Assembly (NCBI GenBank): GCA_022823405.1
Contig: JAJDXD010000065.1
Coordinates: forward strand, 1 to 35,041
Length of the DNA stretch: 35,041 bases
Origin: Gammaproteobacteria bacterium
GTDB lineage: Bacteria; Pseudomonadota; Gammaproteobacteria; Arenicellales; JAJDZL01
Direction of reading: 5' to 3'
Positions 29,538 through 31,934 of this stretch are shown here, one piece after another. The notes below the pieces were generated by a model. The model was not told where the DNA came from. It worked only from the letters and a program-made list of their open reading frames with translations, and searched no databases. The translations under genes and the position numbers were made by a program. Every line of letters begins with the position of its first letter. Position 1 is the stretch's first letter.

Positions 29538-30017
29538 GTGCAGACAGAGCAATTTTTCGATCTCAAGCCGTTCAATACCAACATCAATGTAGGTTTGGTT
29601 CTCAGCGACTACTATAAGGATATCGCACAAAATTTGCTGTTGGGGGTTGAGAGCGTATTGAACAACTATCCGCAAGTTGGCTTTGAAATTGCGCGAGTTG
29701 CTGGAGCTTGGGAGATTCCATTGGTTAGCCGAGTGATGGCTCAGACCGGTCGCTATCAGGCACTCATCGCGCTCGGTTGTGTTATTCGCGGTGAAACCTC
29801 GCATTTCGATTTTCTGTGCAAGGAGTGTTCCGCGGCATTGATGTCCGTCAGTATGGACTTCACCATTCCCGTAGGCTTTGGCGTGTTAACGGTCGAAACC
29901 TATGCTCAGGCCCAGCAACGTTCAGATATTGATGACATGAAGAAAAATAAGGGACGCGAGGCAGCAATTGGTACATTGCGTTCCCTCTACGCTGTAGCCG
30001 AAATTCGTCAAGGCTAA
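29538..30017 (+). CDS. ribH: 6,7-dimethyl-8-ribityllumazine synthase
   Basis: A 159-residue lumazine synthase that joins DHBP with the ribitylaminopyrimidine. Motifs are VAGAWEIPLVSR, ALGCVIRGETSHFDF with the catalytic histidine, and FGVLTVETYAQAQQRS. The end has the usual NKGREAA. Start is GTG, 2 nt after the ribB stop, with a purine-rich AGAGGA stretch just upstream inside ribB, which indicates translational coupling. It lies directly before the nusB-thiL fusion, the usual neighbour order. Confidence 0.95.
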   Translation: MQTEQFFDLKPFNTNINVGLVLSDYYKDIAQNLLLGVESVLNNYPQVGFEIARVAGAWEIPLVSRVMAQTGRYQALIALGCVIRGETSHFDFLCKECSAALMSVSMDFTIPVGFGVLTVETYAQAQQRSDIDDMKKNKGREAAIGTLRSLYAVAEIRQG

Positions 30018-30030
30018 AAGCCCCAATCCA

Positions 30031-31428
30031 ATGACTGTTTCAGCAAGGCACTACGCAAGGCTGGGTGCCGTTCAATTCCTGTATTCCTGGGATGTCCAGA
30101 ACCAGTCCGTCAATCAAGTCGATGATCAGATTCTGATTGATTCGAATGTATTGCTAAAGGGCGATCTAGTTTATTTTCAAAATCTTCTTAAATCAATTCC
30201 ACCCAAGATATCACAGCTGGATGAAATAATTTCGAAGGTGGTTCACTGGCAAATTGACACGATAGATCCGGTGGTACGCGCGATTTTACGTCTCGGTGTC
30301 TATGAGATGACTTGCGAATACGATGTGCCGCTGAAAGTGATTACGAATGAATGCATTGAACTTTCTCGGGAATTTGGCAATCCTGATAGTTACAAATTCA
30401 TTAATGGAACACTTGACAAGTTAGCATTCAGTGAACATGTTCGTCTCAGTAAACTGATCAAGCGGGGATCGCAGTCACACAGTCGAGAATTCGAGTTGAT
30501 TCAGCGTTATTTTGCGGACCGACAAAGTTATGATGATAGCGTGCTTACGGGAATTGGAGATGATTGTGCAATCGTTGATATTCCCGCAGACCAGCAACTT
30601 TTGGTTACAACCGATACACTGCATGAGAACGTTCATTTTCCAGCATCTACGAAAGCTCGACAGATCGGGTACAAGTCTTTGGCTGTTTCCTTAAGTGACC
30701 TGGCTTCGAAAGGTGCGAAACCGAAATATGCAATGCTGAATCTGTCTCTGCCGGGATATGATCCGACTTGGCTTGCTGAATTTAGTCGCGGGTTCTTTGA
30801 TTTGGCGGCTCAATTTAACATTGGTTTGATTGGCGGCGATACGGTTCGTGGCCCCCTGTCAATCGGAATTACAGCTTTTGGCATTGCAACGGTCGGCCAG
30901 TGTCCGTTGCGTTCAGGCGCTTGTCCCGGAGATGCAATCCATGTGACCGGAACATTAGGTGATGCTGCACTTGGGTTGATTTCTTCTCGCCTTGGCAACT
31001 CACTCAATCGCAAGGATACTGAATATCTTCAGCGAAAACTGGAACTCCCCCAGCCGCGAGTGAACGCGGGTCGGGTTATCGCTCGTTATGCCACATCATC
31101 CATTGATTTGTCGGACGGATTAATTGCAGATCTTTCTCACATTCTTGTTGCCAGTGGTGCAGGCGCTTCAATTGATCTTGAGAAAATTCCGCTTTCACCT
31201 GTTTATCAGAATCTCCTTGCTGACGTGGGTTGGGATTATGCCCTGGCACATGGTGATGATTACGAGTTATGTTTTACTATCAATCAGGACCTGCCGGATT
31301 CTGCAATTGAGGAGGCGGCTGTCCCAATGAGTCGAATTGGCACTGTTGTTGAAGGTGAAGGCATTGAAATCAGACAGTCAAATGGCGAACTCTACCAGAT
31401 TCAGTCTTCCGGATATTCTCATTTCTGA
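30031..31428 (+). CDS. NusB-ThiL fusion protein
   Basis: A 465-residue single reading frame with two domains normally encoded by neighbouring genes. Residues 1-135 are the antitermination factor NusB, with ARHYARLGAVQFLYSWD, IDPVVRAILRLGVYEM and NPDSYKFINGTLDKLA. After a 17-residue linker (about 136-152, rich in Lys and Ser), residues 153-465 are thiamine-monophosphate kinase with EFELIQRYF, GIGDDCAIVDIP, TTDTLHENVHF, LIGGDTVRGPLSIGI and HGDDYELCFTI. NusB binds boxA RNA with NusE for rRNA antitermination; ThiL makes thiamine pyrophosphate. No ATG or GTG lies at the domain border and I see no stop or slippery run there, so the fusion appears real unless a base is missing in the assembly. Confidence 0.93.
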   Translation: MTVSARHYARLGAVQFLYSWDVQNQSVNQVDDQILIDSNVLLKGDLVYFQNLLKSIPPKISQLDEIISKVVHWQIDTIDPVVRAILRLGVYEMTCEYDVPLKVITNECIELSREFGNPDSYKFINGTLDKLAFSEHVRLSKLIKRGSQSHSREFELIQRYFADRQSYDDSVLTGIGDDCAIVDIPADQQLLVTTDTLHENVHFPASTKARQIGYKSLAVSLSDLASKGAKPKYAMLNLSLPGYDPTWLAEFSRGFFDLAAQFNIGLIGGDTVRGPLSIGITAFGIATVGQCPLRSGACPGDAIHVTGTLGDAALGLISSRLGNSLNRKDTEYLQRKLELPQPRVNAGRVIARYATSSIDLSDGLIADLSHILVASGAGASIDLEKIPLSPVYQNLLADVGWDYALAHGDDYELCFTINQDLPDSAIEEAAVPMSRIGTVVEGEGIEIRQSNGELYQIQSSGYSHF

Positions 31429-31445: not shown

Positions 31446-31934
31446 GTGACAACCTTGAAGCGACGTCCAATCGGATTTAAACCAGCGCTTTGGATCGCGT
31501 TCGGATTTGGAACGGGCTTTGTTCCTAAAGCTCCTGGGACCGCAGGTACGCTGCTTGGCATTCCGTTAGCCATTATGATCAGCCAGATGTCGACCGTTCT
31601 TCAGGTTGTCATATTGGTAGTTTTGTTTGTTCTGGGATGCATGGTGTGTCAGATGGCGGCAGATTGGCTGGGAGAGCAGGATCCTGGAGCAGTTGTTTGG
31701 GATGAAGTGGTCGGTTATTGCGTGGCCATGGCCTTTTTACCGGCAACCCTGACGACCGTTGTGGCGGCATTCATCTTGTTCAGGCTTGCTGACATCGTCA
31801 AGCCCTGGCCTATTTCCTGGTTTGAACGTCGAATTGCCGGTGGCACCGGTATTATGGTGGACGATTTGCTGGCTGGTGTACTGACCAATATCGTCATTCA
31901 CAGCATGATTTATATCGGAATATTGACGCCCTGA
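31446..31934 (+). CDS. pgpA: Phosphatidylglycerophosphatase A
   Basis: A 162-residue membrane enzyme that dephosphorylates phosphatidylglycerol phosphate. Family motifs are FGFGTGFVPKAPGTAGTLLGIPL near the N-terminus, DPGAVVWDEVVGY with the metal-binding acids, FRLADIVKPWPI and GGTGIMVDDLLAGV. Four hydrophobic segments are visible. Start is GTG at 31446, 17 nt after the NusB-ThiL stop. The thiL-pgpA order is common in Gammaproteobacteria. Confidence 0.95.
   Translation: MTTLKRRPIGFKPALWIAFGFGTGFVPKAPGTAGTLLGIPLAIMISQMSTVLQVVILVVLFVLGCMVCQMAADWLGEQDPGAVVWDEVVGYCVAMAFLPATLTTVVAAFILFRLADIVKPWPISWFERRIAGGTGIMVDDLLAGVLTNIVIHSMIYIGILTP

Follow-up and report, generated by a model that had tools for sequence, protein, structure and literature searches.

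One reading frame for NusB and ThiL

The window, by which we mean the whole stretch of 35,041 nucleotides that was analysed, contains an open reading frame on its forward strand (30031-31428) that begins with ATG and comprises 465 codons with zero internal stops. The window's genome (G000) was compared with five further genomes of its genus, an uncultured gammaproteobacterial group (G001-G005). The features at the locus are the following.

29538..30017, + strand: ribH (lumazine synthase), directly upstream of the fusion, GTG start (TIGR00114, 107 bits, above cut-off)
30031..31428, + strand: nusB-thiL fusion gene, 465 aa (open reading frame with NCBIfam and Pfam matches; fusion also in G001, G003, G004, and G005)
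30046..30426, + strand: NusB domain, residues 6-132 (TIGR01951 and structural alignment with E. coli NusB)
30436..30486, + strand: polar linker of 17 residues (136-152), predicted to be partly helical and then disordered (AlphaFold2 pLDDT and congener alignment)
30487..31425, + strand: full-length ThiL domain, residues 153-465 (TIGR01379 and structure matches)
31446..31934, + strand: pgpA (phosphatidylglycerophosphatase A), directly downstream of the fusion (PF04608, 138 bits, above cut-off)

Residues 6-132 matched TIGR01951 (nusB) with 114.2 bits, exceeding the curated equivalog cut-off of 88.35, and residues 153-465 matched TIGR01379 (thiL) with 318 bits (curated equivalog cut-off 184.15) over profile positions 2-320 of 320 (NCBIfam). 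The fused NusB scored 114-117 bits over profile positions 2-128 of 131. Pfam identified NusB, AIRS, and AIRS_C in the fusion protein, in agreement with NCBIfam. The E. coli NusB structures 1ey1 and 3d3b aligned with residues 3-132, and the A. baumannii ThiL structure 5cc8 aligned end to end with the ThiL part; among the solved structures compared with the fusion, no chain spanned both parts. A preliminary description had read NusB (1-135) and ThiL (153-465) as encoded in one frame and separated by 17 residues. The stop-free frame and the two above-cut-off family matches bear this out, and the linker falls at residues 136-152.

The AlphaFold2 model of the fusion, built on a shallow alignment, had a mean pLDDT of 78.9. 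The ThiL part was confident and the helical NusB part less so, and the relative placement of the domains in this model is not interpretable. Linker residues 142-152 had pLDDT values below 50 and are predicted to be disordered. The modelled ThiL part matched 5cm7 with a target-normalised TM-score of 0.90, and the ThiL structures of A. baumannii and P. aeruginosa with 0.87-0.91.

The gene order at the fusion is secF, ribD, ribE, ribBA, ribH, nusB-thiL, pgpA, rhodanese, DsbC-like, recA, and recX, where the names of secF, ribD, ribE, rhodanese, DsbC, recA, and recX were given from sequence without a family search. The order of the flanking genes is kept in congeners and relatives.

Conservation in the genus and origin of the fusion

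All four complete congeners carry the full fusion without a stop, at 95% identity in G004, 57% in G005, and 53-54% in G003 and G001. In the fifth, G002, the reading frame is open over the junction and the contig ends inside nusB. Linker length differs among the congeners by at most one codon, and only by whole codons. A sequencing or assembly error could in principle mask a stop between two ordinary genes, a concern already raised in the preliminary description, and the draft genome that contains the window is indeed fragmented, with 166 contigs. However, the same frame is present in four further genomes (53-95% identity), two of which, G003 and G005, are single-contig assemblies, and the junction is under purifying selection. 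Between G000 and G004, dN/dS was 0.077 for NusB, 0.068 for the linker (few sites), and 0.073 for ThiL; since the ratio is low throughout, all three segments are constrained as protein. The four independent congener genomes, with linkers that vary by whole codons, refute error as the source of the fusion, and we assign this explanation a negligible probability.

Searches with both family models returned one nusB and one thiL above cut-off per genome, both in the fusion gene, with the truncated nusB of G002 left out of scoring. These models detected no stand-alone nusB or thiL in any of the six genomes. The sole other NusB-domain gene in the window's genome is RsmB (C29; 447 bits to the RsmB model) and the sole other ThiL-like match is PurM (C123; 308 bits to the purM model). 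In the congeners the other matches showed the same pattern and were below cut-off, and free-standing copies, which had been named as a sign that the fusion gene is redundant, were rejected for the six genomes. Separate genes in all close relatives had been named as a ground for refutation; every complete congener has the fusion, and separate genes occurred only outside the genus.

In the trees of both parts, the five fused sequences group as a single clade (support 100/99 for NusB and 100/100 for ThiL). The match to the fusion runs end to end in many non-fused relatives. There nusB and thiL, which the preliminary description called commonly adjacent, lie side by side in one frame that is interrupted at the junction by a single stop; the thiL start follows a few codons later (in G012, for example, ...DIRDN-stop-FRS-MNEFDLI). 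Because so many relatives have both genes adjacent, in frame, and one stop apart, loss of the nusB stop suffices to explain the fusion. A single origin by such a loss is supported by these sequence comparisons: the ancestor of the genus would have lost the nusB stop within the conserved ribD-ribE-ribBA-ribH-nusB-thiL-pgpA run. The NusB-ThiL fusion is unusual yet simple in mechanism.

After fusion, the start codon of ThiL itself would have decayed. The only candidate start noted beforehand, a TTG inside EFELIQ, was located at codon 156 of the window's gene (E-F-E-TTG), where it is the sole standard start near the beginning of ThiL; the next one is a GTG at codon 171, already within ThiL. The TTG is present only in G000 and G005. 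It is CTG in the 95%-identical G004, which has no ATG, GTG, or TTG from codon 103, in NusB, to codon 171, in ThiL, and none of these codons was found near the junction in G003 and G001. With its start lost, ThiL would therefore hardly be made except as the C-terminal part of the fusion, barring a non-standard start. As far as standard start codons are concerned, three of the four complete congeners (G004, G003, and G001) have none for separate initiation, which shows for these genomes that ThiL would be made only as a part of the fusion.

The fused chain might still be a precursor, in which a protease cutting the linker or an internal ThiL start releases separate NusB and ThiL, leaving the fusion as a curiosity at the gene level. 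The predicted disorder of residues 142-152, the poor sequence conservation of the linker, and the TTG available in G000 and G005 would all fit such a scheme. Against it, the TTG or any other nearby standard start is lacking in G004, G003, and G001, and inspection of the linker by eye revealed no conserved processing motif. We regard a precursor as improbable.

Beyond the genus, no other stop-free full-length fusion occurred among the matches listed for the sampled genomes (109 in the order, 369 in the class, and 398 in the phylum); these lists were limited by score or length, and a divergent fusion could escape them. In a search of genome contigs, only the congener G004 was fused among the matches listed. 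The fusion may be family-wide rather than only genus-wide, because the genus is the sole one of its family in the genomes searched. The preliminary description knew of no reported fusion of this kind, and likewise we found no paper on a NusB-ThiL fusion in the open-licence literature, a silence that is weak evidence of novelty.

Divergence of the fused NusB

Mean identity between fused and non-fused NusB was 39.6%, as compared to 52.9% among non-fused pairs, and the corresponding values for ThiL were 43.6% and 44.8%. In NusB divergence the five fused proteins were the most extreme of 33 (28 non-fused relatives). The stem branch of the fused clade measured 2.1 in NusB vs. 0.5 in ThiL, a join that the tree program flagged with a long-branch warning. 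Three positions that are invariant in the 28 non-fused relatives (A16, Q19, and I30), and three that are nearly constant in them (T23, F34, and V127), are changed in all fused NusB sequences. In E. coli NusB, residues Y18, E75, and E81 belong to the pocket that contacts NusE (PMC9820117). Y18 is kept in all five fused proteins and the E75 position is D76 in the window. The E81 position (codon 82, window 30274-30276) is Glu in the 28 non-fused relatives and in three fused congeners, and Val in G000 and G004.

One explanation is that the NusB part has drifted out of its antitermination role and would act chiefly as an N-terminal structural or regulatory domain for ThiL, comparable to the NusB-like domain at the start of RsmB. 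The drop in identity, which ThiL almost lacks, the long NusB stem, and the changes at constant or nearly constant positions, including Glu82 to Val in G000 and G004, all speak for it. However, the fused NusB remains above the equivalog cut-off, whereas the RsmB domain reaches 36 bits on the same model, and no second nusB was found in the genus. The fused NusB retains R6 and R10 at its N-terminus, Y18, and the KF-NG-LDK end; three of the five fused proteins still have E82, and within the genus NusB is better conserved than ThiL (70 vs. 58%). A boxA-like site in G003 also argues against drift: TGTTCTTTAATA begins 92 nt upstream of the 16S gene of this one congener, and has two mismatches to TGCTCTTTAACA; the arms of a stem for 16S processing, identified by eye, come after it. 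The search located no 16S gene in the remaining five assemblies, the window's genome among them. In the case of the single-contig assembly G005 (3.1 Mb), either the rRNA operon is missing from the assembly or the search missed it. Taken with both sets of observations, a NusB that has left antitermination seems possible but unlikely.

As to NusB retained as an antitermination factor, antitermination may be altered in the fused lineage, because the NusB stem evolved fast and Glu82 is replaced by Val in the species pair G000 and G004. The stem changes could reflect adaptation to the fusion, or a shift that has nothing to do with it. All fused genomes represent one evolutionary event, and NusB acceleration as a consequence of fusion is therefore not countable statistically. 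The S10 protein (NusE, rpsJ) of the genus carries I3V, E21Q, H53N, V81I, and A91S at positions that are constant or nearly so in 21 relatives of the order. Its likely NusB-binding stretch (AFDHR.IDxSA) is nearly unchanged, and no connection of the five changes with NusB emerged.

Proposed function and known systems

We conclude, with a probability of about 0.8, that the fusion gene encodes a single, obligate protein of two domains, NusB(1-135)-linker-ThiL(153-465), which would have arisen once by loss of the nusB stop and would retain both ordinary jobs. The fusion is real, fixed, and obligate, and most likely amounts to two ordinary proteins on one chain. In antitermination, the NusB domain would pair with S10 (NusE) at the boxA site of the rRNA leader, and the ThiL domain would phosphorylate thiamine monophosphate to thiamine diphosphate. 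A flexible linker would let the two domains act independently. Known ThiLs dimerise, and if the fused ThiL does so, each ThiL dimer bears two NusB domains. Production of NusB and ThiL at 1:1 would follow from the fusion, which is a physical tie between rRNA transcription and thiamine. A stronger proposal is that thiamine status is coupled to rRNA synthesis, with ThiL modulating or bridging NusB in the antitermination complex, either by dimerising or via bound TMP, TPP, or ATP, and with the stem changes as co-adaptation; we consider this very unlikely.

All six genomes carry thiE, so that ThiL would still have a supplier of substrate. No thiC (TIGR00190) was found in any of the six, two single-contig assemblies included, in a search that was positive in 13 of 14 controls, and members of the genus probably depend on an outside supply of the thiamine pyrimidine (HMP).

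The locus joins a conserved antitermination factor to a vitamin-cofactor enzyme in a fusion that is natural and fixed, and the searches found no second copy of either. As no spare NusB was found, the antitermination complex of the genus must accommodate an enzyme of about 34 kDa on NusB, unless the chain is cut, and the fusion is thereby a natural probe of the space at the NusB C-terminus in that complex. It also illustrates how end-to-end, same-frame operon genes become one protein through stop loss, and it offers a testable case of NusB evolution released or redirected by fusion.

A ribH-nusB neighbourhood, often with thiL, has been described (PMC6362234). The proteobacterial ribDE(BA)H-nusB-thiL-pgpA run with separate nusB and thiL has the same genes, order, and neighbours as the locus in the window; the difference is that here the nusB stop and, in most congeners, a usable thiL start are gone, yielding one protein. 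RsmB, the 16S rRNA m5C967 methyltransferase, likewise has a NusB-type domain N-terminal to an enzyme. However, its NusB-like part scores far below the nusB cut-off of 88 and its enzyme modifies rRNA, whereas the fusion joins an above-cut-off NusB to a vitamin kinase in a genome where RsmB is separately present. The inositol monophosphatase SuhB belongs to the rRNA antitermination complex (PMC6614801) and resembles the fusion in that a small-molecule enzyme is physically associated with the NusB/boxA machinery. Unlike the fused ThiL, which is of another enzyme family, SuhB is a separate protein that acts via NusA and RNA.
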